From: Fibrobacterota bacterium
Lineage (GTDB): Bacteria > Fibrobacterota > Chitinivibrionia > Chitinivibrionales > FEN-1185
DNA: 64,000 nt
Reading direction: 5' to 3'
NCBI GenBank assembly: GCA_003165595.1
Contig: PLWQ01000028.1
Location: 243,144 to 307,143 of the forward strand
The position numbers were made by a program, and so were the translations under genes. Position 1 is the stretch's first letter; each line of letters starts with the position of its first letter. Below, piece by piece: positions 17,454 through 44,932 of this stretch. A model generated the notes under the pieces. That model ran no database searches and was not told the origin of the DNA. It saw nothing but the letters and a program-made list of their open reading frames with translations.

Positions 17454-17501
17454 ACCGGCGTCCTTTCCCGAAAAGCAACTGCCTGCCGATTATCAATGGG
17501 G

Positions 17502-17541: not shown

Positions 17542-17563
17542 GCGGACAACGATCACCGTGCAG

Positions 17564-18073: not shown

Positions 18074-18128
18074 GGAAAACCCCCTTATCTAAGAGTTAAC
18101 GGCTGTAAGAATAGGAATATACAATTTT

Positions 18129-19717: not shown

Positions 19718-19847
19718 ACGTTTTCCTCTATGTGAATCAAGCGAGTCTTCGCTTAACCGCCACGTAAAGGCTCGGCGGTGATTGTTATGGACGGATGGGC
19801 CCGGGCATCAAAATACATTTCCCCGGCGTCCGGCGGCATGCCTGCGG

Positions 19848-20672: not shown

Positions 20673-20759
20673 TATTCTCTCTCCCCGGTGCCCCGTGCGC
20701 CACCGCGTTGACGGGAAATACTATATTTTTTGCACGTTTGGTTAAAAGAGGAATCCTGC

Positions 20760-21440
20760 ATGTTCGACTATGTCCTGCTTCAATTCCTGCGCCTGCGCGG
20801 CGAGCGCCGCTATCGTCTCGCAAAAAACCGTCTTTACCGGCAGCGTGACTACTGGCATTGGCTTGCGGAAGGCAAGCCAGCGGCGGTCCCGCATATTGTC
20901 AAGCAAATGGCCGTCAAAGAGCATGCCCGGCGGTTCGGGACCCGCATCTTTATTGAAACCGGCACATATTTGGGGGAAATGGTTGACGCTGTGCAGCCCC
21001 TCTTTTCCCGCGTATTTTCCATTGAACTTGCGGACGGGTTCTTTCGGGAGGCCCGGCACTATTTCCGGTCCCTGCCGCATGTTACCATCGTGCACGGCGA
21101 CAGCGGATCGCGGCTCCCCGAGATTATCTCATCGGTCAATGAGCCCGCGCTGTTCTGGCTCGACGGCCATTATTCCGGCGGCGACACGGGGCAGGGTAAG
21201 CAGGATACTCCAATTGTCGCGGAGCTGCGCGCCATCCTTGACCACCCCGTAAAAAGCCACGTCATCCTCATCGACGATGCGCGCTGCTTTACCGGCGCTG
21301 CCGGCTATCCTGCGCTCCGCACGGTCTTCGACCTGGTGCAGCCGAAAGAACGAGAGCTGCGCATGGAAGTCCTGGACGACATGATTCGCATTTTTCCGGA
21401 CATCGATCCGCTGGAGACCTTCCCTCGCCCGGTCCATTGA
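20760..21440 (+). CDS. Class I SAM-dependent methyltransferase-like protein
   Basis: A 226-residue protein starting MFDYVLLQFLRLRGERRYRL, with AGAGGA about 7 nt before the ATG. IFIETGTYLGEMVDAVQ resembles the glycine-rich SAM-binding loop (E-TGTYLGE) and VFSIELADGFFREARHYF the following acidic strand. FWLDGHYSGGDT is a metal/substrate loop seen in cephalosporin hydroxylase/FkbM-like methyltransferases. It likely methylates a sugar in the adjacent glycan pathway, which is inference from location. Confidence 0.65.
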   Translation: MFDYVLLQFLRLRGERRYRLAKNRLYRQRDYWHWLAEGKPAAVPHIVKQMAVKEHARRFGTRIFIETGTYLGEMVDAVQPLFSRVFSIELADGFFREARHYFRSLPHVTIVHGDSGSRLPEIISSVNEPALFWLDGHYSGGDTGQGKQDTPIVAELRAILDHPVKSHVILIDDARCFTGAAGYPALRTVFDLVQPKERELRMEVLDDMIRIFPDIDPLETFPRPVH

Positions 21441-21474
21441 TGCGGGGGAGCCCCGCGCACCGGAAACAACCGCG

Positions 21475-23313: not shown

Positions 23314-23460
23314 CGGGTGTTTCCTTTTCCGGGCGTAAGATGCGCCAGCGGTACGGAGAAAATACCTCAAAGGGGGAATACCATCAATAGATTAACAAGC
23401 GAAGTTAGTAGAGCCGGACATGGAACCGATACTATATTATTTGATCCGCGCGCTGGTGGT

Positions 23461-31300: not shown

Positions 31301-31440
31301 CGGGGAGGCGAGAACTGATCGAATGCGCAGGACACAAACAGGAGCGATGCCGAGAGCAGGATCCGGCTGGAGGCTGCGCTGCCGTTTACCTTGCGGCGTA
31401 AAGGGATCATAGCCGGAGTACGTTTGTTCGTCTCAATCAT
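28321..31440 (-). CDS. Large lipoprotein of Fibrobacter paralogous family TIGR02171 type
   Basis: A protein of about 1039 residues, start chosen at MIETNKRTPA (AGG upstream). The lipobox LLFVSC puts the lipid-anchored Cys at about 38, followed by an Ig/PKD-like part (VTISATA-type strands). A formylglycine-generating-enzyme-like (SUMF) domain spans roughly 130-390, with FEMGS, YYMDKCEVTQGMYRALMG, RLPTEAEWEYACRGG and GLYDMAGNVSELVDD. The second half resembles a TolB-like propeller (KIAFVKDD, GPRISANGSYVAYGSRD) and ends in a GDSL/SGNH-like part (VVHYPENPLYKY, DPNHLGYLGAQKLSGRL). This layout matches the F. succinogenes paralogous family TIGR02171, of unknown function. Probably surface-exposed. 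Confidence 0.8.
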   Translation of the reverse strand: MIETNKRTPAMIPLRRKVNGSAASSRILLSASLLFVSCAFDQFSPPRVATVTVSATADSNGTVSVFPRDEKVPLGSEVVITAQASPGYVFTGFFGSVRSTDNPLRIIASKNVSVSGRFARQPSSAQMVQIRPSGAGFEMGSRSALSSSIERPPHRVRLTYSYYMDKCEVTQGMYRALMGTNPSTANATQGTFGVGDSFPVYYVSWYDAARYCNARSKVDGYDTVYTYDAVCPLAGTCPYMLENLAVHFDRMGYRLPTEAEWEYACRGGSTSDYFWGDSSADSAGAYAWYSANSGNATHQVGRTRPNAFGLYDMAGNVSELVDDTLAPYGDSLIVNPVVPTNLTLEQFQASYQRPVRGGCFALGVTFLRSSGRIEPYPAPALVTSPHIGFRTALGVFFADTTATPPAKASDTLGITVTCAKSDLIALVGTSAIKIAFVKDDNIHRKVCYLDFTSAAPAVRVLADSTPAYGPRISANGSYVAYGSRDIGFSSPSQTTLWKLCDTAGPRDRTPASASAYLPYWWVDTLTGDTCLVCAEASTMDNLPSWITQRTMLWRLSAGKIAGAPEVITAKGSYYGGRSTNGRYLATGYPNAYLYDYSIDNRIRYFLPPYSGRDDTAQVCNLSISPSIVTPDQLMFLDFGYTQVSTVVGKPYGFHAIIFVCNSCVSCPSHVQKWFEKPAGYAEWDYVKWSNHPGFAAAVAMNQSSGSAGALFLVSLKDSSYLKVAQGDGLHDPYLWIDPTQVSELPDPYVDFAKYDVPVEANSGAQTQLTEKLKLFWKRCAAFQVAIVGSSPAYFGVDPSAIHSFSAVNMAAFMGEILLSEVFAQDYFLPHSPLKAVIMDLDPGFLNSNYYWSAPYLDGLYDSQGFQFDKNNGFWKAGIPSPVASKIAAFGPASWPDFDSTGYAKVHAAGSGWGDTIIDKGDYSIGDTFVQTNLRTVAAAADTLAAHGVSLIVVHYPENPLYKYTLSEGRYGPSRATYGLITQWLDSLCRANPFVHFYDANNDGNHDYADNEAQDPNHLGYLGAQKLSGRLDSLLRLYVR

Positions 31441-31635
31441 TTTGGCCTGCATAAGAGACGGTGCCGGACACTCGTGGTTGCGCTTGCGCCTTGTCGGAAC
31501 GAAAATACATCGTTGAGTGACGTCAGGGAACATGGTCGCCCGGCGCAACGCTCCGCCACCCACCCCGATTTACAAAATGTATATTCTCGGTTGCATCCTC
31601 CTCTCGTCGATCTGGTCCTATGGCAAGGATTGGCC

Positions 31636-33078
31636 GTGCCCGGACAGGAAAAGCTCAATCTTCTGCATCTGACGAAAGGCTCCGTCTTGTACGGCGCCTC
31701 AGACGTGATCTTTGCTCTTGTACGGTTCTTTCTCGTGGCGGTGTATACCCGCATCCTCGCTCCCGCCGAATTCGGAACCTACGCGATTATCTCGGCCACG
31801 CTCCAGTTCGTCTGCGTCGTGGTTCCCCTTGGTTTGCCTTCCGCGCTGATGGTGAAGTTCAAGGAAGACGATCCGAAGGAAATGGCCTCACAGAAAAACA
31901 CCGCGATGCTCCTTCTGCTCCAGGTGTGCATCGGGCTTGGAGCGGCCTTTTTCGCATGCTCCCGGATTCTGTTTACAGCCACCGCTGTTTCGACCCTGGC
32001 TGCCTGGCTGATTCTCTGGGGTGCTTCCGATACGTTAAGCATGGTGCCCAAGGCTTCGCTTCGCTTCAACCAGAAGATCGTGTCGTTCAGCGCTGCGCGA
32101 ATCTTCAGGGTGCTTGTGATGGTGGGGGTGCTCCTGTGGCTTGTAGAGATTCGCTGTACCGGGCTTGGCGCAATCGTTATTTCCGAAGCCGTGGCGGCGG
32201 CGGCCGAGCTCCTGTTTTGCTGCATATTCGACCGGTTCCTTCCCGGACCGGCCCCGCTGTGGGGCCTGGCATCGCTGGTCGGGCTCGGCATTCCGCTCAC
32301 CGCTGTCGGGCTGGGCGTCTTCCTGAACGACCTTTCGGACAGATACGTGGTTTTTCTTCTTCTTGGGAATCAGGCAAACGGGTTCTACGCTGCCGCCGCA
32401 AAGATTGCCGTACTCGGTTCCTTTTGCGCCGAGGCGTTCAATTCCATGTGGTTTCCCTATTTCTTCAGATTTGCCCAGAAGAAGGAATATCAGCAGGGGG
32501 AATTGCGCGATTTTTCAGCGAAACTCGTGATGCTTTTCGCCGCCCTTATCGGGCTTTTGTGCATTGTGCTCCCCAGGCTGGTTACCTTGCGGTTATTGGG
32601 CCGCTATTTTATTTCTCCGGCGTATCACGGTGTCGCGCTGCTTGTCGCGCCCCTCACCCTTGTTTACTTTTTCAAAATGGCGATGTACGTAGCGACGCCC
32701 GTCCTCACCTTTAAGAGGAAAATCCTGCAACTTTCCACGATCAGCTGGGTTGCCGCCGGCCTTAATATCGCGGCGAACGTGGTCTGGTGCCGGGTTTTCG
32801 GAGAGGCTCATTTGTATGCAGCGCTCACGGCGATTGCGTTCATGACGTCGCTCTCCTACGGTGTGTGCATGGTCTGGGTTTCAAGCGCGGCAGGCCTGTT
32901 TTCGCCGCGCGCCTGGTTATTGTCGCCGATGGCTCTTTTTTCCGTTGCGTTGCTTGTGCCGGCTTTTGTGCCCCTTCCCCTCATTTTTCGGATGGCACTG
33001 TGGCTCGCGGTTGCCGCGGTTCTCTATGGGAACCAATTTGCAAACAGCAATGTCCTGAGAAGGCTGCTGAGCGAATAA
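31636..33078 (+). CDS. Wzx-like polysaccharide flippase (MOP superfamily)
   Basis: An integral membrane protein of 480 residues with about 12-14 hydrophobic helices, predicted to flip lipid-linked oligosaccharides across the inner membrane. The N-terminus LTKGSVLYGASDVIFALVRF with TRILAPAEFGTYAII is characteristic of the polysaccharide-biosynthesis MOP family. The GTG start is chosen for AAGGA 7 nt upstream and because the membrane domain begins right after it. It starts divergently from the TIGR02171-like gene. It fits with the glycosyltransferase genes at 13.6-21 kb and 35.5-39 kb. Confidence 0.88.
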   Translation: MPGQEKLNLLHLTKGSVLYGASDVIFALVRFFLVAVYTRILAPAEFGTYAIISATLQFVCVVVPLGLPSALMVKFKEDDPKEMASQKNTAMLLLLQVCIGLGAAFFACSRILFTATAVSTLAAWLILWGASDTLSMVPKASLRFNQKIVSFSAARIFRVLVMVGVLLWLVEIRCTGLGAIVISEAVAAAAELLFCCIFDRFLPGPAPLWGLASLVGLGIPLTAVGLGVFLNDLSDRYVVFLLLGNQANGFYAAAAKIAVLGSFCAEAFNSMWFPYFFRFAQKKEYQQGELRDFSAKLVMLFAALIGLLCIVLPRLVTLRLLGRYFISPAYHGVALLVAPLTLVYFFKMAMYVATPVLTFKRKILQLSTISWVAAGLNIAANVVWCRVFGEAHLYAALTAIAFMTSLSYGVCMVWVSSAAGLFSPRAWLLSPMALFSVALLVPAFVPLPLIFRMALWLAVAAVLYGNQFANSNVLRRLLSE

Positions 33079-33317: not shown

Positions 33318-35561
33318 ATGAAGAAACATTCTGGAGCCTATGCCTTTCTCGGGTGCGTTTGCCTGATTCTTGCCGGCGGCGCCCTGCGTTGGATCAATGC
33401 AGGGACAATCCTCAAGCAATTCGGCTCCTTCAAGGCCGTCAATGCCGTTGTTCCGGCAGGCAATCAACTGTGGCTTGCGACGTCGGGCGGTGTTGTCCGG
33501 TACGACAAGACAACCGGCGCGACAAAAGTCTATTCGGCTATTTCCGACATTCCCGACATGAATCTTACCGCCGGCGTCATTGACAACACCGGAGACCTCT
33601 GGTTCGGAAGCGCATCCGGGTTCCTCACGCATTGTCATCCGCAAACCGAGACGTTCACGTCGTACAACGCACTCGCCACCGCCGTACCCAGCTGGCAAAT
33701 CAGTTGCATCGTGCGAAGCGGCGGGTTCCTGTTCATCGGCACCCAGAAGGGAATCGGCGTTTTCAACATCGGGAGGCAATCATTTCAGAACGTAACGCAG
33801 TTCGGCTCCGCCACCTCCGACAGCGTGTCGGACATTCGGGTATTCGGGGACACCATCGCGGCGGTTCTTCCGGGTGGCCTCGTCTACACCGTGGTACCTG
33901 ATTTCCAGAACGCAATTTTTTCCGATCCGGGAATATGGAATTTTGTTCCCTCGTCAGGCGTGGTGGGAGTAGTCCGCCAGGCCGACAGCCTGCTGTCCAG
34001 CCCCAGGATTTCGGCGCAAATCGGGTCGAACCTCTGGCAATATGCCGGGGGAGACAATGCGCTGCTGCTTAACGGCGCCCTTGTGAACAATTTCGGTTCT
34101 CCTGTAACCGGCGTTGCGCCCCTTGGCGATTCGCAGGTTGCCGTCGGCACGCGGAGTTCATTCTGGTACCTGTGCAACCTGAAGAAACAGACCTTTTTGC
34201 AGCATATGATCAACGGCCCTGAAGATTCGTATACAAAAGGATGCGCCGTTGACCAGAATGGCGTGCTCTGGTTCGTGCCCTACGATATGACCAACGGCAT
34301 CGGCCAGTTTGACGGCAAGAGCTGGACTAGTTTGACCAACGATAATACGCCGAGCCTCCCCCCCATGGGCGCCGGTCCGTTTATTTGCAAAAACGCCGTC
34401 ATGGTGACCTCGCAGAACGATATCTGGGTATCAACGTTCGGTTATGGCGCAAAATGGTTCAACCGGCTCACGGGAAGGTGGTCGTCGTACGAGGACTCCC
34501 ATTCGCCCTATTATGCCCATTACGATCAGCCGTCTCCGATCGTGCGGTGGGACCCGGACTCGGTAAAGAACTGGTGGAGCTTTGTTTCGTCGACCTGCGA
34601 AGACTCTCTCGGCTACATCTGGCTGGCAAACAACAAGGCCATCACGGGAAATTTCCTTGACGTCCGGAAGCCCCGCGACAATTCGGTCTGGCGCAGCTTC
34701 AATATCAATCCGCTCGGGTACGGGACCAATCCGCTCATTACCGGGCCAATGGCCGCAAACCAGGATCGGGCCGCAAATACCCAGTATATTTACGTCGGAT
34801 TCAACAGGCAGGCAGACTATTCCGGCGGCGGGCTCCTCATCCTGAGCTATTCATCGCTGGCAAACCCCCTCGATACTCAGACCCAGATGCGGGTCCAACT
34901 GTACGAGCAGCAGATATCGGTAACGGGATTTGCGGTTGTCAACGACACGCTCGTGTGGGTCTCGGCCGAGGACGGAATTTACCGGATAACGCACAACGAC
35001 ACAGCGACCATTACCAAGGTCTCCACGGTTACATCGACCGCCATCTTTGAGGCAATCGCCGTGGGTACAAACGGCAAGCCCGTGTTCTGCAAGGACAAGG
35101 ACCTTTACATGTACAACGACGACGATTCCTCGCTCACCAATCTCACGAGGTGCGGTACCCTGGGCACGCCCGTAAACTGGATAACGCTCGACAAGAAGAC
35201 CGGCGTGTACTGGGTCGCTGCGACGTCCGGCTTGTACCGGTTCGACGCGGGCGACACCGGCGTAACGCAAACCGGCGCCGCGGCGGGGACCATCGACGTC
35301 TATCCGAATCCCATGTCGCGGACGTATCTGCGGAACCAGCACCCGATCCGATTTGCCAGGTTGACCACGCAAAATCCCCAGGTCCGCATCTACGATGCAT
35401 CCGGCACGCTTGTGCGCATTCTTGCTGCCGTCAATACCAGCATCATCAACTGGGACGGCACCAATACCGCCGGAAGGGTCGTGATTCCAGGTGCGTATTT
35501 CTACCAGGCGAATTCTCAAAACGGAAAATTGTGCAGGGGAAAGATCTTCGTTATTCCGTAG
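33318..35561 (+). CDS. PorZ-like beta-propeller protein with T9SS-type C-terminal domain
   Basis: An exported protein of 747 residues. After a signal peptide come propeller blades of the two-component-regulator type: LWLATSGGVVRYD, LWFGSASGFLTH, LFIGTQKGIGVF, DIWVSTFGYGAKWFN and VYWVAATSGLYRFD. The end (IDVYPNPMSRTYL, VRIYDASGTLVRIL, INWDGTN, GAYFYQANSQNGKLCRGKI) is a type A-like T9SS sorting or FlgD-like domain. Size and order resemble PorZ (about 776 residues in Porphyromonas gingivalis), which recognises A-LPS for the PorU attachment complex. A PorU homologue lies 5 kb away. It could instead be an ordinary T9SS cargo. Confidence 0.7.
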   Translation: MKKHSGAYAFLGCVCLILAGGALRWINAGTILKQFGSFKAVNAVVPAGNQLWLATSGGVVRYDKTTGATKVYSAISDIPDMNLTAGVIDNTGDLWFGSASGFLTHCHPQTETFTSYNALATAVPSWQISCIVRSGGFLFIGTQKGIGVFNIGRQSFQNVTQFGSATSDSVSDIRVFGDTIAAVLPGGLVYTVVPDFQNAIFSDPGIWNFVPSSGVVGVVRQADSLLSSPRISAQIGSNLWQYAGGDNALLLNGALVNNFGSPVTGVAPLGDSQVAVGTRSSFWYLCNLKKQTFLQHMINGPEDSYTKGCAVDQNGVLWFVPYDMTNGIGQFDGKSWTSLTNDNTPSLPPMGAGPFICKNAVMVTSQNDIWVSTFGYGAKWFNRLTGRWSSYEDSHSPYYAHYDQPSPIVRWDPDSVKNWWSFVSSTCEDSLGYIWLANNKAITGNFLDVRKPRDNSVWRSFNINPLGYGTNPLITGPMAANQDRAANTQYIYVGFNRQADYSGGGLLILSYSSLANPLDTQTQMRVQLYEQQISVTGFAVVNDTLVWVSAEDGIYRITHNDTATITKVSTVTSTAIFEAIAVGTNGKPVFCKDKDLYMYNDDDSSLTNLTRCGTLGTPVNWITLDKKTGVYWVAATSGLYRFDAGDTGVTQTGAAAGTIDVYPNPMSRTYLRNQHPIRFARLTTQNPQVRIYDASGTLVRILAAVNTSIINWDGTNTAGRVVIPGAYFYQANSQNGKLCRGKIFVIP

Positions 35562-36666
35562 CCCCGCCACCGGCAAGCCTCCGGGCGACAGCGGGCATCG
35601 ATTCCCGCATGTAGCCAAGCATTGTCTCCCACACCCTCGCATACGAATGATGTTCCTGCACCCATGGCCTGCCGCGCGCGCCCGCAGCCGTGCGGTATTC
35701 CTTGTCGTCAATGAGCCTCAGGAGAACGTCGTGGAGCGTATCGCCGGTGGCGAGCACAAAGGGGTGATCGGCAAGGAATGACGCGTACTCCGGCGTGAAC
35801 TCGGTGACGGTAGGGATGCACATGGCAAGTGTTTCGAGGGAATTGACGCCGTACCCCGTTCCGCCGAAGTTGCCGATCTGCTCAATTGCTATATGAGATC
35901 GCGCCTTTTCCGCAAGAACGGTGTCGCGGCTCACGCCCGTAAGGATTGCATACTCGATGTCGCGCTCCCTGGAAAGTCTTTTGAGCACAGGCTCAATAAG
36001 GTGTGTTCCCTTTGCCGCCGGGTTTGACGGCGCATGAATGATGCGGATTCTTGCGCCGGGGCTCGCCGCCCGCGGCAGAGAGGAGCAGTCGTAGGGCAGT
36101 GCCAGATATTTCAAATTCGGATGCAGGGAGAGCAGGTCGAATTCACTGGTGAGATTGAGGCTGCTTGCCTCGTCGACGGCCCGCACGATCCCACGGCCGC
36201 GGATGTCCGGGCCGTGGTAGTGGCACACAATGGGTTTGCCGATGGCGCGAAGTTTCTTTACCCAACGCGAATCGCGGAAGAAATCAATTCCGCCGTGAAA
36301 ATGGTAGATGTCGAATCCGTACAGACCGTACTGCCTTGCCAGTCCGGAGAATTCGGGGGCGCGCCATTCGTCGCGCAGAGCGACCCATGCCGCTTCCAGC
36401 GCACCGGCCGGTTTGTACTCGTATGTCACACCGTGCGCGGCCTGCTCCGCGATACGCCGCTGTGCCTCGGCTTCACGCCTGCGCCGGATTTCGCGCAGCC
36501 ACCAGGGATCAAACAATTGCTTGTTGAGGCATATGTCCTCCGGCATGTTTCCCCGGTGTTTGTACAACGTGAGCAGGCGGCCCGAATGGCCCATCGCCTC
36601 GTACACTTTGCAAAATGTCAAGGGGACATTCACGGTATTGAAATAGGAGAAGTGCAGGCTTCTCAC
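35551..36666 (-). CDS. GT4-like glycosyltransferase
   Basis: A 371-residue GT-B protein. GFDIYHFHGGIDFF and VCHYHGPDIRGRG correspond to the N-terminal Rossmann domain. IRIIHAPSNPAAKGTHL and EQIGNFGGTGYGVNSLETLAMCIPTV give the donor-binding domain, with a substituted EX7E motif. The GTG start overlaps the preceding glycosyltransferase stop (GTGA). It is the last of three overlapping GT4 genes and converges with the PorZ-like gene, sharing 11 bp of 3' end. Confidence 0.82.
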   Translation of the reverse strand: MRSLHFSYFNTVNVPLTFCKVYEAMGHSGRLLTLYKHRGNMPEDICLNKQLFDPWWLREIRRRREAEAQRRIAEQAAHGVTYEYKPAGALEAAWVALRDEWRAPEFSGLARQYGLYGFDIYHFHGGIDFFRDSRWVKKLRAIGKPIVCHYHGPDIRGRGIVRAVDEASSLNLTSEFDLLSLHPNLKYLALPYDCSSLPRAASPGARIRIIHAPSNPAAKGTHLIEPVLKRLSRERDIEYAILTGVSRDTVLAEKARSHIAIEQIGNFGGTGYGVNSLETLAMCIPTVTEFTPEYASFLADHPFVLATGDTLHDVLLRLIDDKEYRTAAGARGRPWVQEHHSYARVWETMLGYMRESMPAVARRLAGGGATE

Positions 36667-37841
36667 CGGGGTGTTCCCTTCATGGCTTTTTCCATGAAAT
36701 CAACGTATATCTTCTTCTCATTCTCCCAGCAGAACCGCTCGGCCGCGGCGCGGCAGTTGGCGCGGTAGACTGCAAGGTCCGGGAACACCGCGAGGAATTC
36801 GGCGAGTGCAGCGCGTATGCCCTCTACGCTCGACGGCGACACCACCCATCCCAGTTTCCATTCACGCACTACGCGCGAGATTTCCGGACCGTCGCTTGCG
36901 ATCACCGGGATTCCGGCGTTCACATAATCGAACAACTTACTCGGAAGCGTAACCGTCATGTTGATGCCGCGCATCTCGTGAATCACTTGCCCTAGCTGGG
37001 CGTCCTTGAGATAGTAGACGAACTCGTCGCTCTTCACCGGGTCTGCAAAATGCACCCGGGCCGAAAGGCCGCGGTGCGCAGCCTCGCTGCGCAGCGCTTC
37101 TTTGTATTCCCCGGCCCCCACGAGCGCAAAATGCAGCGGCGTGAGAGGCTCCATGGCGCACACAAGGGGAAGAAGGCCGCGGTTTTCCGCGATCTCTCCC
37201 TTGTAAATAACGAGGGGGAGGTCGGCCGGAATCCCGAACAGTCTCCTGAGGCGACCGTCCGGGGCGGCCGCATAGTCGCTCTTGTTGGGCACATTAAGGA
37301 TCGTTGCGGTATGGGAAAGTCCGTAATCACGCCTCAAAAACCGTTCCGTGGTGTTGCACACGGCGGCAACGTTCTGCGCTTGAGCGATGCCGAGCCATTC
37401 GAGCATGAACCACACGCGGCGCATCACGGGTTTGGCCACAAGCTGGTCCACGCCCTGAAAATATTCCAACGAAAAATAATTGTACCGCGCCCGGTGAAGC
37501 CCGGCCGCGATCCTGGCAGGCACAAGCGCGGGCGGATCAACCGCCTCATACAACCGCGCCTTCAGACGGAGCAGCACCGCCAGGAGAGAAAAGAAATAGC
37601 GAAGGAAGAAGATCTTCCCGCGTGTGGAGCCGGCCTCAATAGTAATAGGATAGGTGTCTATGCCGGGCCAGGCCGGGTCGCCCTGGCCTGGCCGTCCTTC
37701 CCACGAAACAAGCGCCACCCGGTATCCTTTTTCGACAAGGGCCGACGCCTGGCGGTGGAAAAACGGATAGAACCGGGCATCGGCCAGATGGACGATGCAC
37801 ACATCGTAGCGGTTCCGCGAAATCGGTTTAGAAACGAGCAT
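36663..37841 (-). CDS. GT4 glycosyltransferase
   Basis: A protein of about 392 residues from MLVSKPISRNRYDVCIVHLA. GT-B features: DVCIVHLADARFYPFFHRQA, VIYKGEIAENRGLLPLVCAM (donor domain start) and GINMTVTLPSKLFDYVNAGI with PVIASDGPEISRVV, the family's nucleotide-sugar site. The chosen ATG overlaps the upstream gene by 14 nt; in-frame starts further upstream would overlap more and were not used. It is the middle gene of the three-gene GT4 set. Confidence 0.85.
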   Translation of the reverse strand: MLVSKPISRNRYDVCIVHLADARFYPFFHRQASALVEKGYRVALVSWEGRPGQGDPAWPGIDTYPITIEAGSTRGKIFFLRYFFSLLAVLLRLKARLYEAVDPPALVPARIAAGLHRARYNYFSLEYFQGVDQLVAKPVMRRVWFMLEWLGIAQAQNVAAVCNTTERFLRRDYGLSHTATILNVPNKSDYAAAPDGRLRRLFGIPADLPLVIYKGEIAENRGLLPLVCAMEPLTPLHFALVGAGEYKEALRSEAAHRGLSARVHFADPVKSDEFVYYLKDAQLGQVIHEMRGINMTVTLPSKLFDYVNAGIPVIASDGPEISRVVREWKLGWVVSPSSVEGIRAALAEFLAVFPDLAVYRANCRAAAERFCWENEKKIYVDFMEKAMKGTPR

Positions 37842-39042
37842 GGGTTCGCTTGCTTGACATAAGTGATTGGTAGACCGCATCCACTGCTGCAAAATGTTTG
37901 CCGTACGAGAAGGTTTTGGCCGCATGTGCACGGCCGGCGCCGCCGAGTTTGTTTCTGAGTCCGGCGTCGGTTGCGAGAAGCACCACCTTGCGCGCGGCTT
38001 CGGCGACGTCGAATTGCCTCACAAGAAATCCTTGCTCGCCGTCCACAAAACATTCGCTTACGCCGCCTGAGTCAAAGGCAACCACGGGCACCGCCATGGC
38101 CATTGCCTCGAGAATGACGCCGCCCAGGCCTTCCTGATAGTTAGGAAGATGCACGAACACCGTGGTGTGAGACAGCAACGCGGGAATTTCTTCGTGCGGC
38201 ATCTGGCCGGTGATGGTTATCAGGCGGTTGAGTCCCAGCTCCAGCATCAGGTCTTTCACGGCCTGATAGTAGCTCTCGTGGCCCGGCTGCTTGTCGCCCA
38301 CGATAAGATACTGCAGGCGGCCCGGAGCGGCTTTTTCGCACAGCGCGGCCATGCGGATAAAATGTTCGTGGCCCTTTACACGAAGGAACTTCGCTACGGT
38401 GACCACGGCGAGCCTGCCGGGGTCGATCGTGGGAGGACGGGGAAACGAGCGTGAGGCGCCGAAAAGGCGCGGATCGGGACCGGGGTCGTATACCACCGCC
38501 GCCCGTCGGTCTCCAACGCTGCGTTTCACTGCTTGCGAAATGCACACGACGGCGCCGGCAAACATCCGGCTCCACAGGCGGAACGCGCAGCGCCCGGAAC
38601 GTGTTTCTATGCTTCGCCTCACGTGCGCCACCACGCGGGCGCCCGATGCCGCCGCGCACGGGTAAAACGGCGCGTCGATGATATCGGAAAAATGGACAAG
38701 CGCAAACCGTCCCTTGCGCATGAAGCACGTCACGCGCACAAGCGCTCCCGGCAGCGTCAGGCAGAACAAGAGGAAACCCACTCCCCGCCTTGGAGAGCGC
38801 ATTCGCGCAAAGGGAACGATGGATACCGGGACCGCGGCTGCCTTGAGCCGATCAACGAATTCGCCCGATTCCGGGAATACGGCATGCACCTGGTATCGCG
38901 GGTCCTGAGCATAGTGGGTGATGAGCGCATAGGTGCAGATGGGCATGCCGGTATCGAATGAAGCGACCGACGAGAAGAAGCAGATTCTCGTTTTTGCAGG
39001 CTCTTTGACTATGGAGTGCGTGGCGGACCTTGATCCAATCAT
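37828..39042 (-). CDS. GT4 glycosyltransferase
   Basis: A protein of about 404 residues from MIGSRSATHS, start supported by GGAG 8 nt upstream. N-domain: ICFFSSVASFDTGMPICTYA and FALVHFSDIIDAPFYPCAAA. C-domain: TVAKFLRVKGHEHFIRMAAL, ITGQMPHEEIPALLSHTTVF, LPNYQEGLGGVILEAMAMAV with PVVAFDSGGVSE, a textbook GT4 EX7E region. It is the first gene of three overlapping GT4 genes that probably assemble the glycan handled by the Wzx-like protein. Sugars unknown. Confidence 0.88.
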   Translation of the reverse strand: MIGSRSATHSIVKEPAKTRICFFSSVASFDTGMPICTYALITHYAQDPRYQVHAVFPESGEFVDRLKAAAVPVSIVPFARMRSPRRGVGFLLFCLTLPGALVRVTCFMRKGRFALVHFSDIIDAPFYPCAAASGARVVAHVRRSIETRSGRCAFRLWSRMFAGAVVCISQAVKRSVGDRRAAVVYDPGPDPRLFGASRSFPRPPTIDPGRLAVVTVAKFLRVKGHEHFIRMAALCEKAAPGRLQYLIVGDKQPGHESYYQAVKDLMLELGLNRLITITGQMPHEEIPALLSHTTVFVHLPNYQEGLGGVILEAMAMAVPVVAFDSGGVSECFVDGEQGFLVRQFDVAEAARKVVLLATDAGLRNKLGGAGRAHAAKTFSYGKHFAAVDAVYQSLMSSKRTHARF

Positions 39043-39112
39043 CCGGTTTCTCCAGCAGAAAATATACATTCCCGTTGGCCGCAGTCACGGGTCCGGCCTC
39101 TGCGCGTCCCAC

Positions 39113-39155
39113 CTCGAAAAAAAGAGGCCACGCCCGTTCCCGGGCCTGGCCTCCT
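39113..39155 (-). terminator. Intrinsic terminator after the Arg/Pro-rich membrane protein gene
   Basis: On the minus strand GAGGCCAGGCCCG, a GAA loop region and CGGGCGTGGCCTC form a hairpin with one mismatch, followed by TTTTTTT. It starts about 40 nt after the stop of the gene at 39197 and before the GT4 gene set. Confidence 0.8.
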
Positions 39156-39196
39156 GCAAATTGCCGTCATGCGCGGTTCGCGCGCGTCAATAGGGC

Positions 39197-40087
39197 TTAT
39201 CTCCCGAAATGAATCGGCTGAGCCTCTCCCTCGCCCGAGTCGCTTGACTCGGGGGAAGCGCTCCGGGGCGGATTTCCCTGCTGACCCTCGACGTGGGGAG
39301 CCAGCGGTGGGGCAACGGCACCTATGGCCGGTTGACTCGACGGATTGGCGTTGGCCGCACCCGCAGCGGCCTGCTCTTCGGCGGTAAGGATTCTCCTGCG
39401 CACCAGCACTTTTCTGCCGTGAAGCACCTCGGTATTCTCGGGAACGATCGCCACCGGTTCTTTGGCGGCAACCGGCTGGCTGGGAGCAATGATCTGGGGC
39501 CGCGGCGGCGCAATCTCGGGCGGAGGAGAAAAGGGCGCCGGCGCAGTCGCCGCGGGTGGCTGGCTCATGGCCGGGGGTAGATCGGTCTGTGGCGGCCTGT
39601 CCATTTCCGGGGCCCGGTTTCTGTCTCTAAACTGGTTGCCCTGGGGGCGGTTGTGCCTGTCCCTGTCTCTTCTCCGAAAATCGTCGTCTCTTCCCCTGTT
39701 TGGTCTGTTGTTGTTCTGATCTGGTCTTCTCTGGGAATTCTGAGGCGTGGAAACAACGTCCTTTATTTGCTTCCTGGCGTTTTCCTGGTCGCGCTCCGCG
39801 TTCTTGAGCCTGAGATTTATGTCTCGCAGAGATTTCTCCACATGATCGACCGGCTGCGGTTCCGGCGGCGTGAAAGGCTTTGGTCTCTGATCCATCACGG
39901 GCTTCTTGTTGAAGCGGTTGTCATCACGTCTCTTTCTGAAGTCCCGGTTGTCGTTGACAACGGGCGGGACTGCCGCAGGTTCGGGCTTTGCAACCGGCTT
40001 CTTGCCGGAAACAATAAGCACGATTGAAATTATCTGCAGGATGATTATAATAACAGACGCTGTTACTACTATCGTTGCTAAATCCAT
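39197..40087 (-). CDS. Membrane-anchored low-complexity protein, unknown function
   Basis: A 296-residue protein with one N-terminal TM helix (LATIVVTASVIIIILQIISI) and no cleavage site. A short coiled-coil-like stretch follows (VEKSLRDINLRLKNAERDQE), then an Arg/Asp/Asn-rich region with repeated RD and RP pairs (about 115-165), a Pro-rich region (165-215) and a short basic segment VLHGRKVLVRRRILTAEEQA. The Arg/Asn-rich part suggests RNA or nucleic-acid binding or phase separation at the membrane. No family recognised. It ends with a clear terminator; a much smaller protein with similar topology lies upstream. Confidence 0.75.
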   Translation of the reverse strand: MDLATIVVTASVIIIILQIISIVLIVSGKKPVAKPEPAAVPPVVNDNRDFRKRRDDNRFNKKPVMDQRPKPFTPPEPQPVDHVEKSLRDINLRLKNAERDQENARKQIKDVVSTPQNSQRRPDQNNNRPNRGRDDDFRRRDRDRHNRPQGNQFRDRNRAPEMDRPPQTDLPPAMSQPPAATAPAPFSPPPEIAPPRPQIIAPSQPVAAKEPVAIVPENTEVLHGRKVLVRRRILTAEEQAAAGAANANPSSQPAIGAVAPPLAPHVEGQQGNPPRSASPESSDSGEGEAQPIHFGR

Positions 40088-40444
40088 AAGTACGAAACTC
40101 CATAAGGTTTGAAAAAAGGGTTTTGTTATCCAGCTGTTGCATCTTCACTGCTGCAGGGCCTCTGGTATTGAGTGCGACATAGTATGCACGCACTTCACTT
40201 GCATTATGTCCTTTCCTCGCTCTTCACACACCTGCTGCCGGACACTACGCGCAGGGCGCGGTAATCGATGCGTGGCGCATCTGCTTGAAACGGTACTGTT
40301 GCCTGCAAACCTCCTTTCTTTTTTGTCAAACGGCGGCACCGCCAATGATGCCGCACCACTTTTTTGTCAAAGATCCAAGGGAAAGTCGCGCGCATTCGGA
40401 TCGGCCGCTCTGGAACCAATCAAGACTCGGCCTTCGCCTGGCGG
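40088..40444. other. Intergenic stretch with repeat-like motifs
   Basis: No gene is evident. On the minus strand 40168-40213 reads GGAAAGGACATAATGCAAG and then GCATACTATGTC. This resembles the GGCAAA-GACATAATGC hairpin motif of repeat family B (13469-13500 and 6672-6700), so it may be a decayed copy. TTTTTTGTCAAA occurs twice (40320-40360), flanking CGGCGGCACCGCC. Nothing else was recognised. Confidence 0.4.
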
Positions 40445-40633
40445 TTATTTTTTGGGCTCATTGGGACTCTTAGGGGTTTCCCGGGGCGCACCGGAGATCT
40501 CATTGGTACTCTTGATGATGGCGGCCAACTCGTTGATCTTCTTCGTCGCCAGGTAGATTTTGCTCCAAAGGAAAATAAGAACGAGGAGGAAGAAAAAGAA
40601 GTTGATTATCCAGATTATTCTGACAATTTCCAT
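40445..40633 (-). CDS. Small single-pass membrane protein
   Basis: A 62-residue protein with one strong TM helix (IIWIINFFFFLLVLIFLWSK) followed by a helical stretch YLATKKINELAAIIKSTNEI and a Lys/Pro-rich tail. Topology (N-terminal helix, short coil, charged Pro-rich tail) is like a miniature of the 296-residue protein just downstream, so a functional or evolutionary link is possible. No strong ribosome site was seen. Function unknown. Confidence 0.5.
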   Translation of the reverse strand: MEIVRIIWIINFFFFLLVLIFLWSKIYLATKKINELAAIIKSTNEISGAPRETPKSPNEPKK

Positions 40634-40680
40634 AATACGCTATTAATAAAAAACATTATGTGACATCCCGCGAGGCCTTG

Positions 40681-40869
40681 TCACTCCTTAAGATACGTCT
40701 CGGGACTCGCGAGACGCAAGAATTTATCGGCAAGCAACCACTCTGCTTGGAGGCCGTGAAACCAAAGTGCTGCGGCGCGCATCGGCCAGAGGGAATTCCA
40801 ATCCGGCAGGGTCGGCATGCGAAATTGGCACCCGGTCCTTTTGCTGCACAGGGCAATCCGCCGGTACAA
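40681..40869 (-). CDS. Possible small ORF after porU
   Basis: A 62-codon frame directly downstream of porU. The part MPTLPDWNSLWPMRAAALWF with GLQAEWLLADKFLRLASPET looks more protein-like than chance (Trp/Leu-rich amphipathic helices). No good ribosome site or family is visible; it could be the remnant of a longer gene. Low confidence. Confidence 0.25.
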   Translation of the reverse strand: MYRRIALCSKRTGCQFRMPTLPDWNSLWPMRAAALWFHGLQAEWLLADKFLRLASPETYLKE

Positions 40870-40873
40870 CTTG

Positions 40874-43800
40874 TTACCGTGGCGGATTGATCGCCAACTT
40901 CTCTATCGGACTCTTGACAACTTTCTGTTGGACCCTGTCTTCGGCAATCACCTGGTACAAATAGACGCCGGGCGAAAGCTTGTGGCCGAAATCGTCTCTT
41001 CCGTCAAACGGTTCTCCGCGTTTGACGTCCTTGAATACTCTCACCAGCCGTCCCGACAGCGTGAACAATCTGATGGTAACAATCACCCGTTCTTCTTCGG
41101 TCTGGGTCACCGTCTTGGACAAATCGAAGTAAAAATTGCTCACCTGCCCCATGGGAACCGGGTTCGGATAGGTAAACACATGATACAAGGCAAGCTCGTC
41201 TTCGGTGGTGACCTCAAGAGCGACGCCCCTCTTTGCCACATTTCCAAGAAGGTCCTGCGCGGTGATATTGATGGTATAGGAGCCCAGCGGTACGGTTCCC
41301 GCGTCGAAGGTCCAGTTTGCGGTACCGCGGCGGTAGTCTCCCTGCCCAAACTGGAATTTGTGGTTGATATTGGTGCGCGCGATAACGCCCGGCACCTCAA
41401 ACGTTATCCCCTCATTGGGCCCGGAGGACACTGCGTCGATACCGCTGGAGTCGTACATGTCTATCTCAAGTGTCAAGGGGAGCGGCGCGGAGATCTTGTC
41501 GGTGGACGTTGCGCCCATGCTCGACGCCGCTGCCGCGGTCGCGGACGCTCCCTGGTACACCGGCCGGATCGAGATTGACGGGCCGACGGTATCGGTGATT
41601 TTTGTGGAGGCAAAACCGTGAAACAGGTAATTGCTGTTGCTGCCGAGCGCGACGCTGTCGGCGATCCAGCCGTACCCCGTGAGCCGGATGCCCGAAGTGT
41701 TGAAGGTGACATTCTTGGGCAGCAGGATCTGCTGTTGGAACACGCCATTAACAATCTGCGTCTGCCCTGCAAAAATCGGAGTCCCGGGCATTTTGTATAT
41801 GGGATTGTTTCCCGTGAGGGCCTGGCCGCCGTCCTTGCGCGTGGTGGCATAAGCAGGATTGAACAGGGTAATTTGCACCTTGGCGTTGCCGGCGGCGCCG
41901 AACTGCAGGTCGGCGGTTCCATTTTTCCTAAGGACTGCCCCGCGTATCGTTACCGGCTGCAAAGCCTTGAGCGTGTCCTTGAGCACGGCGCCGTTATTGT
42001 CGACAACGGTAAAGGAGATCGTGCGAGCCGGCCTCATCAGGTGTATGGACGGGTCGCCCAGGTATGAATACACTTTCTGGTTGTCGTCGGGGCCGGAATT
42101 CTTTGCCAGCGTAAGGGCTTCGCCGAGGCTTCTGGCTCCGCTGTCGCTGGTGTCAAAACAGAAAGTGAAAAAGTTCCCCGCAAGCTTTTCGTTGTCGGAG
42201 GCGTAGGCCTCACGAGTGGCCGAGATCGTGCTGATCGCGGCGCTGTTGGCCGCAAGAACGCAATATTCGGCCAGACACCGTTTTGTGCCGGGTTGATCGA
42301 ATTTGCCTACCGAGCACGAGAAAGCGGAAATAAGGGGGTACTCGCCGTTATTCTGCAGGTTGCCGATATCCTCGGCCATAAAAATGTGTTCGTCGGCCCA
42401 CACATTGTCGGCCCCGTGACCGAAATAGTTGACATATGCCACGCCGTTGTTTATCCCGTTGATGAGCGCCTGCTTGGCTTCGGGCTTTTCGTGCTGGGCG
42501 TTCCAGGGGTATTCGAACAAGTAGTCTTTTCGTACGTCGATGGCGGGACGCAAATGCTCCACAAGGGAGTCGACCATCTCTGACGACTCCTCGTGTTGCG
42601 TGCCGAGCTGGTCCACTTTGTTTCCCTGCATGTCGTCGTCGGCGACAAGCAGCATCCGGTTGCGCCACGCGCCGAAATCCGCGACCGACGGGTCCTCCGT
42701 CTGGATGATTTTGTCAACCGCTTGCGAAGCGTCCTGCGCCGTTCTGCAGGGAATGCGGCCCAGGAAACAATCGGGCGTTGAGGCCGGCGAGGCGGCATTG
42801 TCGCCCGGATCAAGGTACACAAAGAAATCTTCAACGCATTTGTCGCTGAATTCCGCCACCGGGATAAAGCAGGTGTCTCGCGTGGCAATATTTCGATAGT
42901 CGTAGTGACCGCCTCCCATGAACACGACATAGTCGAACGAGGAGTTCTGAGCGTGCACGTATTCCAGGCAATTTCGCAATGCGGAAGGGTCGGTATTGCT
43001 CCCCGAGAACTGGTCGTAAATGTCGGTTATTGAAATTGCCTTGGGGTTGCCGAACCGGCCGATGTTTCTCTTGTGCCGCGCAAGCCGCTGGGCCTGCACC
43101 ATGAAGTTGGGGTGGGTGACAATGAGGTAATCGATGGGCGTCGACAGAGAGCGAAGGTCCCGCACGGTAAAGTCCGTGCCGCTCTTGGGACCAACAAGCG
43201 TTAGCGTGGGGGAACCGCCGATCGCCTGCTGTGTGCAAACGTAGTACCGCACGCCGATCCCTGCCGTGTCGGTCCATTCGTAGGTTCCACCGCTCCGTAC
43301 CGTGTCCACGAGCGACATCGAAGCATCGGCGTTGCCGATTCTTATGATGTAAACCAGATCCGAGGGAAGTCCGGAAAGCCTGTATCGCACCAGGCCCGAG
43401 TCTTCCGGCGAAAACACGGTGAGGGAGGGCTGGTTTGTCATTGTGAGCTTTTCCATGTACCGGAATTCAACCTGTTTCAACTCAACGGTGTCGCTCTTGC
43501 CCGCGTTTATAGAAAGAACAAGACCGCTGCCGGGGCTGTACGTAAAGGGAGACCACGTGCCATATTGGCCTTGGGTGGATATGGCGGAGCCGCCGTAGAG
43601 TATCGTAAGGTTCGGCGATCCCGTCATGTATCCCGAGATAACCTGCAGGCTGCAGGGCGCCGCTGCATCGGCCAACGGAAGCACCGGATTGTCAATTGGG
43701 AACGACGGCATGTAGTAGGTGAGACTTGTCCAGGCCCATTCGAGGCCGCCATCGCCGCCCTGGGTGAGGGACGGCCAGACGGATTTCTTCAGGAGCAGGT

Positions 43801-44932
43801 GGCTCTTGAACGAGGTGAGAGTGTCTTGCGCCGGGGCAGAAACAGGCGCCATCCTGGCGAGAGACAGTCCGGAGTCGCTCTTGATTGCAATCCAGTAATG
43901 GCGATAATCGTCGTAGTGGTCGATTTTGTAGGTGAAGCGACGCGGCGCGACCGTGGTATCGTACAGCCAGTCGGATATGCTGCTGACGTAGGCAAGCAGG
44001 TAATCGCCGGCGTCAAGCGTATCGTTCTTGTTGGCGTCGAACCGCGCGAGGGGCACTTCGCTCAGGCCATCGGGAATCTGGTCGGGCGTCGGCGTCTGTG
44101 TCGGCAATTCCCCCTTGCATGAGGCATACAGGGCTACCCGGCTGATGCGGGGCGAATAGCCGAGCAGCGAGATGATGTCGCTGCCGCGCAATTTGATGAC
44201 TCCGTTTTCGTTGATTGTTCCCTCGTTGTAGCCGCTGTGGCCGTCGCCGACCGAAAAGGTTATCATGGACTGGGATGTTGACAAAGGGTATTGCTTGGCG
44301 GAGGCCCGCTTGGCGGAAGGCGCGGCCGCAGCCCACCCCGCGGCCACCGAATAGTTGAGCACCAGACTTCTCAGCATGTGTGCATAATCGGATTTCGGCG
44401 ACGTGGCGGCGGGGGCCGTTTGGGCCGCAGGAAACTCGATTGTAATTTCCGCTTTGTCGAGAACCTGTGCGGAGGAGCCTTTCGCCGCTGAGACAACCGG
44501 CCTCAGGATGAGCTGCGCGCAACGCATCCGGCCGAACTGCGCGTACGTAACATCGGATATCCAGGGGCCGGAGAAATGGAGGCCCGGGAATCGCGGACCG
44601 GTTTTTGGAGCATTCCTCACGCGCAGCGGACTGCGCAGCGGTTCCACATGCGAGGAAACCTGACCCATCCGCACCGAAATTGCGCCCCGGGCAGGCACGC
44701 CCACGTGCAGGGAAAACGCCGGTACAATGGCTTCGCCGTTTTCGCCCAGGTCCACGTTCGAGCCGGAAAACTCAATGGCCGACGCGGCCGCGCCGGTCGG
44801 GATTACCCGAAGATTGTCGGTTGTCCATTGAAAGGTAAGCCTTTTGGCGGAATTCTCAGTCACTCGGATTGACGAAAATGACGCTCCGAAACATCCCAGG
44901 CAAAGCATCAACGCGAACATGCGGGTCAGCAT
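40874..44932 (-). CDS. porU: Type IX secretion system sortase PorU (C25 gingipain-like)
   Basis: An outer-membrane-associated cysteine protease of 1352 residues. In Bacteroidota PorU removes the C-terminal signal of T9SS cargo and joins the mature protein to A-LPS. A signal peptide (MLTRMFALMLCLGCFGASFS) is present. The C25 catalytic pair is visible: His839 in YVNYFGHGADNVW and Cys873 in ISAFSCSVGKFD, in the usual His-then-Cys order. Before it lies YLIVTHPNFMVQAQRLARHK, typical of the family. The C-terminus VFTYPNPVPMGQ, VTIRLFTLSGRLV and LSPGVYLYQVIAEDR is a CTD, as in PorU itself. The match is strong, and no other T9SS core gene (porKLMN, porV, sov) is in view. Confidence 0.9.
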   Translation of the reverse strand: MLTRMFALMLCLGCFGASFSSIRVTENSAKRLTFQWTTDNLRVIPTGAAASAIEFSGSNVDLGENGEAIVPAFSLHVGVPARGAISVRMGQVSSHVEPLRSPLRVRNAPKTGPRFPGLHFSGPWISDVTYAQFGRMRCAQLILRPVVSAAKGSSAQVLDKAEITIEFPAAQTAPAATSPKSDYAHMLRSLVLNYSVAAGWAAAAPSAKRASAKQYPLSTSQSMITFSVGDGHSGYNEGTINENGVIKLRGSDIISLLGYSPRISRVALYASCKGELPTQTPTPDQIPDGLSEVPLARFDANKNDTLDAGDYLLAYVSSISDWLYDTTVAPRRFTYKIDHYDDYRHYWIAIKSDSGLSLARMAPVSAPAQDTLTSFKSHLLLKKSVWPSLTQGGDGGLEWAWTSLTYYMPSFPIDNPVLPLADAAAPCSLQVISGYMTGSPNLTILYGGSAISTQGQYGTWSPFTYSPGSGLVLSINAGKSDTVELKQVEFRYMEKLTMTNQPSLTVFSPEDSGLVRYRLSGLPSDLVYIIRIGNADASMSLVDTVRSGGTYEWTDTAGIGVRYYVCTQQAIGGSPTLTLVGPKSGTDFTVRDLRSLSTPIDYLIVTHPNFMVQAQRLARHKRNIGRFGNPKAISITDIYDQFSGSNTDPSALRNCLEYVHAQNSSFDYVVFMGGGHYDYRNIATRDTCFIPVAEFSDKCVEDFFVYLDPGDNAASPASTPDCFLGRIPCRTAQDASQAVDKIIQTEDPSVADFGAWRNRMLLVADDDMQGNKVDQLGTQHEESSEMVDSLVEHLRPAIDVRKDYLFEYPWNAQHEKPEAKQALINGINNGVAYVNYFGHGADNVWADEHIFMAEDIGNLQNNGEYPLISAFSCSVGKFDQPGTKRCLAEYCVLAANSAAISTISATREAYASDNEKLAGNFFTFCFDTSDSGARSLGEALTLAKNSGPDDNQKVYSYLGDPSIHLMRPARTISFTVVDNNGAVLKDTLKALQPVTIRGAVLRKNGTADLQFGAAGNAKVQITLFNPAYATTRKDGGQALTGNNPIYKMPGTPIFAGQTQIVNGVFQQQILLPKNVTFNTSGIRLTGYGWIADSVALGSNSNYLFHGFASTKITDTVGPSISIRPVYQGASATAAAASSMGATSTDKISAPLPLTLEIDMYDSSGIDAVSSGPNEGITFEVPGVIARTNINHKFQFGQGDYRRGTANWTFDAGTVPLGSYTINITAQDLLGNVAKRGVALEVTTEDELALYHVFTYPNPVPMGQVSNFYFDLSKTVTQTEEERVIVTIRLFTLSGRLVRVFKDVKRGEPFDGRDDFGHKLSPGVYLYQVIAEDRVQQKVVKSPIEKLAINPPR

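Follow-up and report, generated by a model that had tools for sequence, protein, structure and literature searches.

PorZ relatives encoded among surface-sugar genes in Fibrobacterota suggest how a secreted-protein anchor may be made

Introduction

Could a locus outside Bacteroidota both make the glycan anchor of T9SS cargo and encode proteins that use it? The sugar that anchors cargo is known for a small number of Bacteroidota, P. gingivalis, T. forsythia and P. intermedia, and differs among them, as far as the parts of the literature drawn on here go. In Fibrobacterota the question is testable, since Fibrobacter, a cellulose degrader whose cellulases are proposed to be attached in this way, belongs to the phylum. 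The sections of the Fibrobacter succinogenes T9SS study used here propose covalent outer-membrane attachment of cellulases carrying the C-terminal domain (CTD) (Raut et al. 2019, PMC6851124). They share CTD-bearing cargo with the system described below and, unlike the present analysis, contain no anchor-glycan locus; PorU and SprA have no occurrences in that paper's main text. The window analysed here is a stretch of 64,000 nucleotides from a Fibrobacterota bacterium (contig PLWQ01000028.1), in which a preliminary description had noticed PorU and a PorZ-like protein within 12 kb of each other, with glycosyltransferases (GTs) between.

The block and its PorU sortase

That arrangement holds: PorU (40874-44932, minus strand) and the PorZ-like gene (33318-35561, plus strand) flank three GT genes, all on the minus strand. 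Two are clear GT4 genes by Pfam, at 36663-37931 and at 37828-39069, the latter with a true start that is probably further in; the third, at 35551-36666, encodes a glycosyltransferase-like protein with sub-threshold GT matches only. Also on the minus strand, a 296-aa protein (39197-40087) has a hydrophobic stretch at its N-terminus, no family match in profile searches, and homologues near PorU in genomes G017 and G031. The Wzx-like flippase, a polysaccharide biosynthesis protein (31474-33078, plus strand; PF13440, PF01943), does adjoin these genes as had been claimed, from outside the 33318-44932 block that the preliminary description named. Most of the block is kept in G017, the second genome of the window's genus, so the arrangement is more than chance. 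The glycosyltransferase-like copy there has 72.5% identity and the Wzx-like gene is conserved, while the GT4 gene at 37828-39069 is absent from the G017 block. A promoter and terminator scan of the locus returned nothing useful.

Profiles and alignments identify the 1352-aa protein as a PorU sortase. It scores 507.9 bits against NF033707 (E 4.9e-152), exceeding the equivalog cut-off of 420, and phmmer aligns it to PorU 6za2 at E 1.9e-40, including the GHG and Cys regions. The C25 domain (PF01364) covers residues 602-964, at about 42041-43129, and a C-terminal sorting-type domain lies at about 40913-41170. The His/Cys pair is indeed kept: His839 (42416-42418) and Cys873 (42314-42316) are present as in all 30 rows of an alignment of 23 distinct C25 proteins. 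NF033707 finds matches at E 0.001 in 119 of 120 genomes of the phylum, 32 of them over the cut-off, and also weakly matches 2 of 14 control genomes. PorU and the PorZ relative are both present in Fibrobacterota, a phylum outside Bacteroidota. A PorU search of genome contigs gave three loci, from MAGs labelled Fibrobacter sp. (one) and Chitinivibrionales bacterium (two), and the window's own genome has a second PorU.

The proximity of PorU to PorZ is a narrower matter. By eye, from the listed positions, it is seen only in the two genomes of the window's genus, G000 and G017; linkage as a phylum trait was therefore rejected. On the single contig of G032 the two genes are 2 Mb apart. Assemblies are often fragmented; both genes are on short contigs in G053, from the window's family, and may be linked there. 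No GT was detected within 6 kb of PorU in any of nine other PorU loci, a set that includes the second PorU of the window's genome.

A divergent PorZ relative

The 747-aa protein has an N-terminus that looks like a signal peptide by eye and a T9SS CTD at about 35298-35531 (TIGR04183, 26.2 bits, above the cut-off of 23). Its match to NF052228 (T9SS_PorZ) is significant at E 8.7e-22, with 77.3 bits against a cut-off of 260. Reg_prop (PF07494) is above its threshold (28.4 bits, cut-off 20.4) and the PorZ_N_b_propeller family PF21544 below it (21.9 bits, cut-off 27). As a sole query, the window protein does not retrieve PorZ from the PDB. A1, a profile of 17 members of the PorZ-like family, finds PorZ 5m11 at E 1.3e-39, second to the sensor propeller 4a2l, and one 104.9-bit stretch of the 5m11 match spans the last blades and the CTD. 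All 17 members match NF052228, none over its cut-off among the matches listed; Reg_prop is found in 15 of them, the TIGR04183 CTD in 13 and PF21544 in 2. A structure predicted without an alignment had a pLDDT of 35.6, too low for fold searches, so that kinship with PorZ rests on sequence profiles. On these grounds the protein is a divergent PorZ relative, which bears out the claim that a PorZ-like protein is encoded near PorU.

Could it instead be a surface lectin, secreted by the T9SS, built of Reg_prop repeats and binding its own co-encoded glycan, outside the PorU attachment complex? The scores under the PorZ equivalog cut-off (reached in none of the 120 phylum genomes, where scores are far below it), the 4a2l top match, a CTD of the kind that cargo carries and the lack of linkage to porU in the genomes compared beyond the genus would all fit. 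The distribution of the family speaks for a core component, however. A1 matches 119 of 120 genomes at E 1e-8 or better, including all 83 good ones. The match is near-full-length as a single stretch in 95, with at most one such stretch per genome among the matches listed. The contiguous match to the last PorZ blades plus CTD, and the block shared with porU in the window's genus, also argue against the lectin, which we consider unlikely. Reg_prop sensor propellers of the BT4663 type (PDB 4a2l) share the propeller repeats; unlike them, PorZ-like proteins carry a T9SS CTD at the end (13/17 by TIGR04183).

Glycan genes accompany porZ

If PorU is rarely seen near PorZ, are the glycan genes tied to either? 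Outside the window's genus, a GT is found within 6 kb in 29 of 43 PorZ loci, as compared to 2 of 40 random loci; the 43 are the 45 PorZ loci minus those of the window and G017, and the GT seeds came from the window. For the random loci 40 of the 45 genomes were used, in most cases taking the opening 14.5 kb of contig C2; some of these loci are much shorter. Among loci of at least 8 kb the difference is 28 of 33 versus 2 of 30 (Fisher p 1.5e-10). GTs were not detected in 14 of the 43 PorZ loci, several of which are on short contigs. Nine of 12 families have them near porZ; f11 and f12, each represented by a single short contig, do not, and f7 falls outside the sample. Pfam gives the same picture, with 15 group-1 and 14 family-2 GT proteins among 130 PorZ neighbours and at most one of each among 130 random-locus proteins. 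The neighbours were proteins of 130-900 aa within 3 kb of PorZ in 35 loci, leaving out the window, G017 and eight second members of a genus; of the resulting 178 proteins, 130 from 29 loci were scored, and those left out were 14 rows of a 678-aa family, 2 others and the last 32 in the list. On the random side, 130 of 139 proteins, themselves drawn from 297, were scored.

Of the three GTs in the window, both GT4 proteins cluster with GTs of porZ loci in other families: that of 36663-37931 with those of f6, f8 and f10, and that of 37828-39069 with those of f3 and f5. In at least ten loci porZ and a GT, Wzx or FemAB gene lie on the same strand with gaps of 2-50 bases, and these short gaps suggest that porZ and the adjacent genes form operons. 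Wzx was mapped around porZ with three seeds; a profile built from the window's copy only had no match there. The linked genes change between families. In f10, 4 of 5 loci have LpxK close to porZ; in f8, 5 of 12 have an LpxA-type gene there; GT9 and GSCFA genes are also among the neighbours. DegT family matches number 3 among the 130 scored neighbours, and none of ten neighbours chosen by eye as possible DegT or sugar enzymes matched DegT at E 1e-10. For the 678-aa family, which lies upstream of porZ, one representative has no match in Pfam, NCBIfam or the PDB.

GT9, GSCFA, LpxA-type and LpxK genes serve the envelope in general, and this, together with their turnover between lineages, would suit a general LPS or O-antigen island in which porZ, and in one genus porU, sits by history and takes no part in a shared pathway. 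We regard this as quite improbable: GTs accompany porZ in nine of the twelve families and are rare or absent at random and PorU loci, and the short same-strand gaps point to operons. The position of porZ in surface-sugar loci of many relatives suggests how the sugar anchor of secreted proteins may be made.

A FemAB-type transferase beside porZ

How might such a glycan acquire an acceptor for cargo? Of 22 genomes with a strong match to a FemAB-type transferase, 15 have it no more than 7 kb from porZ, always on the porZ strand; when any match at E 1e-6 or better is counted, the figure is 17 of 42. Strong means 290 bits, a threshold set after viewing the list, and comprises 21 genomes plus G063, where the gene is cut by the contig end. 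The arrangement recurs in several genera of the window's order; near porZ in the window's genome and in G017 there is no FemAB match. According to the portions of PMC7468200 used here, VimA of P. gingivalis also matches TIGR03019 and is thought to transfer Ser or Gly to the linking sugar. With its TIGR03019-like FemAB, the porZ neighbourhood may parallel the Wbp/Vim linking-sugar pathway. It differs in that the porZ-linked proteins, likened to VimA through TIGR03019, score 42-69 bits against that profile's cut-off of 260, and in that no match of this kind is close to porZ in the window's genome.

TIGR03019 takes its name from the XrtA system, and 24 of the 120 genomes, the window's own included, have an exosortase match. 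The FemAB-type enzyme and the GTs might then be part of an exosortase/PEP-CTERM exopolysaccharide system, or act in peptidoglycan bridging. This is very unlikely, since among the 22 genomes carrying the porZ-type FemAB an exosortase match is missing from 13 and lies on a separate contig in the other 9, while the FemAB matches that do share exosortase contigs (G017, G019, G058, G075, G078 and G082) are weak and not of the porZ type.

An attachment model and its secretion machinery

The remaining T9SS components bear on whether PorU and the PorZ relative could serve in attachment. SprA/Sov is over its cut-off in 12 of 12 genomes searched, the window's own included, so the absence of sov, which would have counted against the preliminary description, is not seen. 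PorV-family barrels are matched in the same number, again including the window's genome, 11 over the cut-off. CTD-bearing cargo is present too: scoring 150 of 210 candidates from the genome gave at least 106 matches to TIGR04183 (E 0.001 or better), PorU and PorZ included. Profiles for GldL/PorL (0/12 genomes), GldM/PorM (0/9) and GldN/PorN (0/9) found nothing, in a search set with no genome known to hold them.

We think it probable that PorU and the PorZ relative carry out attachment in a Fibrobacterota T9SS whose anchor-glycan locus is lineage-specific, a function deduced from the genes and their company. Cargo with a C-terminal sorting domain would leave through SprA/Sov; the PorU His/Cys pair would cleave the domain off, and PorU may then join the freed C-terminus to an amino group of a surface glycan. 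PorZ would bind and hold this glycan, most likely an LPS, which GT4, GT2 and Wzx products of the porZ neighbours may make or assemble; in relatives LpxK, LpxA or the FemAB-type transferase could also take part, the last perhaps adding the acceptor amino acid. The glycan made near porZ would thus be the cargo anchor. The proposal of an anchor-glycan locus outside Bacteroidota stands in so far as PorU, a PorZ relative, SprA and the PorV family occur with glycan genes and PorZ loci beyond the genus are rich in GTs. It does not extend to PorU, for which membership in a glycan locus was observed in the window's genus only (0/9 other PorU loci have a GT within 6 kb), and the window has no FemAB/VimA-class match near PorZ.

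A fuller version is tentative: a porZ-centred locus builds a lineage-specific LPS-type anchor, with its acceptor amino acid added by a FemAB/VimA-class transferase in the window's order and by other means elsewhere; the pathway is genetically tied to PorZ and not PorU; and the T9SS has no recognisable PorLMN motor and has PorV barrels with a propeller of their own. Either way, the linkage of porZ to GT, flippase, lipid A and FemAB genes names concrete candidates for the Fibrobacterota anchor glycan.

The P. gingivalis PorU-PorZ-PorQ-PorV complex with A-LPS is alike in its PorU sortase with a His/Cys pair and CTD, its propeller-plus-CTD PorZ, SprA and PorV-family proteins, and the surface-glycan genes implicated. 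It is unlike in that the Fibrobacterota PorZ relative is far under the PorZ cut-off and the GldL/M/N profiles are silent in the Fibrobacterota genomes searched (no known holder in the set). In the Fibrobacterota neighbourhoods covered here, moreover, porZ is placed in glycan loci in many lineages.

One further gene borders the block, a TIGR02171-family-like lipoprotein with an FGE-sulfatase domain (28321-31563, minus strand; 403.6 bits, cut-off 544), whose true start is probably further in. It matches TIGR03525 (GldK/PorK) at 84.9 bits against a cut-off of 350, which its FGE-sulfatase domain may explain, and its family is found near PorZ in 4 of 45 loci.

Genes of the PorU-PorZ block

The window's genome (5.39 Mb in 42 contigs) encodes a PorU (40874-44932, - strand) that scores 507.9 bits against the NF033707 equivalog (cut-off 420) and aligns to the solved P. 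gingivalis PorU 6za2 at E 1.9e-40. The His/Cys pair pointed out in the preliminary description is present as His839 and Cys873, and is likewise kept in all 30 compared rows (23 distinct C25 proteins). Between PorU and porZ lie three glycosyltransferase (GT) genes (35551-36666, 36663-37931 and 37828-39069, all - strand), one of them with sub-threshold matches only, and the gene of a family-less 296-aa protein (39197-40087, - strand), while on the far side of porZ come genes for a Wzx-like protein (31474-33078) and for a lipoprotein resembling TIGR02171 (28321-31563). The GTs lie on the same strand as PorU and the 296-aa gene, and porZ is convergent to this group. The intervening GTs and adjacent Wzx-like gene had been named in that description, whose genes are real and whose theme is right.

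The window's genome holds a second full-length PorU (63.6% identical) and further C25 proteins of 1586 and 661 aa (loci L041:9440-13531, L042:5824-10584 on contig 14 and L043:9240-11225 on contig 23); all three extra C25 proteins have the His/Cys pair. Small proteins of the 296-aa type (39197-40087 here; L051:17136-18050) carry a hydrophobic stretch near the N-terminus together with a conserved block, SLRDINL, and the motif HGRK, and occur near PorU in the window's genome, in the second genome of its genus (G017) and in G031. A second group of GT genes, one GT4 and two GT2, occupies 13602-23370, some 8 kb ahead of the porZ block, and includes a gene (21475-23370) that by eye resembles an ABC exporter.

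Identity of the PorZ-like protein

The best NCBIfam match of the PorZ-like protein (33318-35561, + strand) is NF052228, T9SS_PorZ, with 77 bits where the cut-off is 260, so that, judged as an equivalog, it is not PorZ. The profile is matched by all 17 phylum proteins from which our own profile, A1, was built, and its cut-off is reached in 0 of 120 phylum genomes. Reg_prop is over its Pfam cut-off in the window protein and the type IX secretion system (T9SS) sorting domain just over. Searched against the PDB, A1 finds the BT4663-type sensor propeller 4a2l (4e-44) and PorZ 5m11 (1.3e-39), the latter match including one 104.9-bit stretch across the last blades and the C-terminal sorting domain (CTD). 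The sensor propeller is expected beside PorZ, because PorZ resembles BT4663 in structure according to the available text of PMC8545088. The window protein alone found no PorZ in the PDB, and its single-sequence AlphaFold model was unusable. A1 is matched at E 1e-8 or better in 119 of 120 phylum genomes, including 83 of 83 good ones; the listed match is a single near-whole-profile stretch in 95 genomes and in the others is broken up, weak or located at contig ends. The nearby PorZ-like protein of the preliminary description is upheld by kinship to PorZ and fails as an equivalog; judged by kinship, sequence architecture and distribution, the protein is the best candidate for PorZ.

Linkage of porZ to glycan genes

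Neighbours within 6 kb of porZ were clustered across 45 genomes, the window's included. The largest clusters are GT4 (20 loci), GT2 (16), GT9 (9), GSCFA (9) and FemAB-like (8), followed by a further GT (7), Wzx (5), LpxA-type (5) and LpxK (4). For GT9, GSCFA, LpxK, LpxA-type and FemAB, Pfam bore out the assignment of one representative. As a control, GT profiles seeded from the window only were iterated on the pooled loci, and their matches were then counted in 43 PorZ loci from beyond the genus, in 40 loci picked at random from 40 of these genomes, and in 9 PorU loci. A GT lies within 6 kb in 29/43 PorZ, 2/40 random and 0/9 PorU loci (1.06, 0.06 and 0 GTs per 10 kb). Where flanks reach 8 kb the counts are 28/33 PorZ versus 2/30 random loci (Fisher p 1.5e-10, the genomes being partly related and hence not independent). 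Pfam counts for 130 porZ neighbours give Glycos_transf_1 in 15 and Glycos_transf_2 in 14, against at most 1 each among 130 random-locus proteins, where neither is among the 25 families listed, the smallest with one member. GT-bearing porZ loci occur in families f2, f3, f4, f5, f6, f8, f9 and f10 besides f1; the single loci of f11 and f12 have no GT near porZ (f7 is outside the set).

Among 36 GT4 proteins placed in one tree, the 36663 GT groups with GTs from porZ loci of f6, f8 and f10 (100/100), and the 37828 GT with those of f3 and f5 (100/99); the program warned of long branches, the f6 member among them. Three GTs of the 36663 group lie 2-10 bases from porZ. For the 35551 protein the sole close relative is the one in G017.

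In G017 porU, the 296-aa gene, two GTs, porZ, wzx and the lipoprotein gene follow one another as in the window (50-73% identity); the 37828 GT is missing there and a 998-aa gene is added. In the other genomes, as far as their fragmentation lets one see, the listed PorU and PorZ places are by eye far apart or on different contigs, and porU adjoins an Obg GTPase-like gene (by eye) in 4 of the 7 other loci examined in the window's order. The anchor-glycan locus originally proposed is upheld in its porZ-GT linkage (29/43) and not, at the other PorU loci compared, in its inclusion of PorU (0/9). The strong evidence comes from the recurrent porZ-glycan linkage and not from how close PorU and PorZ lie, which was seen in a single genus.

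Of five f10 loci, three have LpxK no more than 20 bases from porZ and a fourth has it at 1 kb; of 12 f8 loci (f8 being presumed Fibrobacteraceae), 5 have an LpxA-type gene no further than 6 kb from porZ. The presence of these genes near porZ suggests that the anchor may be of LPS type.

Other neighbours recur as well. In f8 porZ is immediately preceded, on its own strand, by an ECF-sigma-factor-like gene, in most cases accompanied by a divergent DsbD-like gene (L055, L056, L082, L085, L086, L089, L091 and L102; one representative of each assigned by Pfam). In the window's order a 678-aa family with no known domain (14 loci, for instance L078:4199-6232) and a STAS-domain protein (12 loci, for instance L078:6760-7329) lie upstream on the opposite strand.

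A FemAB-type transferase near porZ

In several genera of the window's order porZ is followed by GT2 and/or GT4 or Wzx and then femAB. Against TIGR03019 (cut-off 260) six of these FemAB proteins score 42-69 bits, and a PDB search with their profile brings up aminoacyl-tRNA-dependent peptide synthases (E 3.8e-5). The available portions of PMC7468200 report that VimA also matches TIGR03019 and that vimA exchange between species altered the linking-sugar amino acid in P. gingivalis; those of PMC11969387 give the Prevotella intermedia linking sugar as an N-alanyl deoxyhexose. A FemAB match of some kind occurs in 42 of 120 genomes, 21 of them strong (over 290 bits). With G063, whose match is cut by a contig end, these form a set of 22, in which FemAB lies within 7 kb of PorZ in 15, always on the same strand, and on another contig in 7, two of those PorZ contigs being under 5 kb. 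Weaker matches are near PorZ in 2 of 20 genomes (G031 and G069), on the opposite strand, and the window's genome and G017 have weak matches only, away from porZ. An XrtA system would be a poor explanation of this FemAB set, because an exosortase match is missing in 13 of the 22 genomes and on another contig in the other 9.

Type IX secretion and the proposed mechanism

The sov and porV homologues sought after the preliminary description are present in the window's genome: SprA is over cut-off in 12/12 genomes searched, this one included, and PorV-family proteins are matched in 12/12 (11/12 over cut-off). Its CTD proteins, also to be listed, number at least 106 by TIGR04183 (E ≤ 0.001, from 150 scored among 210 candidates). 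Fibrobacterota genomes match SprA, PorU and PorV-family profiles, yet those for GldL (0/12 genomes), GldM (0/9) and GldN (0/9) are silent, which, with no positive-control genome, does not show absence; a T9SS with another motor is possible. A possible T9SS in Fibrobacterota is already in print (PMC11285876, in the text available), and for F. succinogenes it has been proposed that CTD-bearing cellulases are covalently attached (PMC6851124, likewise). The available parts of PMC9127263, PMC8754138, PMC11205867, PMC11969387, PMC11285876 and PMC11700989 describe no Fibrobacterota anchor-glycan locus.

The data show the gene identities and the porZ-glycan linkage; from these we infer what the substrate and product are and in which order the steps run. 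If the P. gingivalis scheme applies, PorU would remove the CTD and join the cargo to an amino group of a glycan held by PorZ, and the porZ locus would build this glycan. The window locus represents a new form of a known system; its function is putative.

In 11/12 genomes a PorV-family barrel protein (open frame 737-900 aa) matches its family as two segments separated by about 400 residues (L045:7065-9449 on contig 20 of the window's genome; also L038, L039 and L040), and the inserted part carries Reg_prop-type propeller repeats in 4/4 proteins checked. This barrel-propeller fusion recalls the PorQ-PorZ pair.
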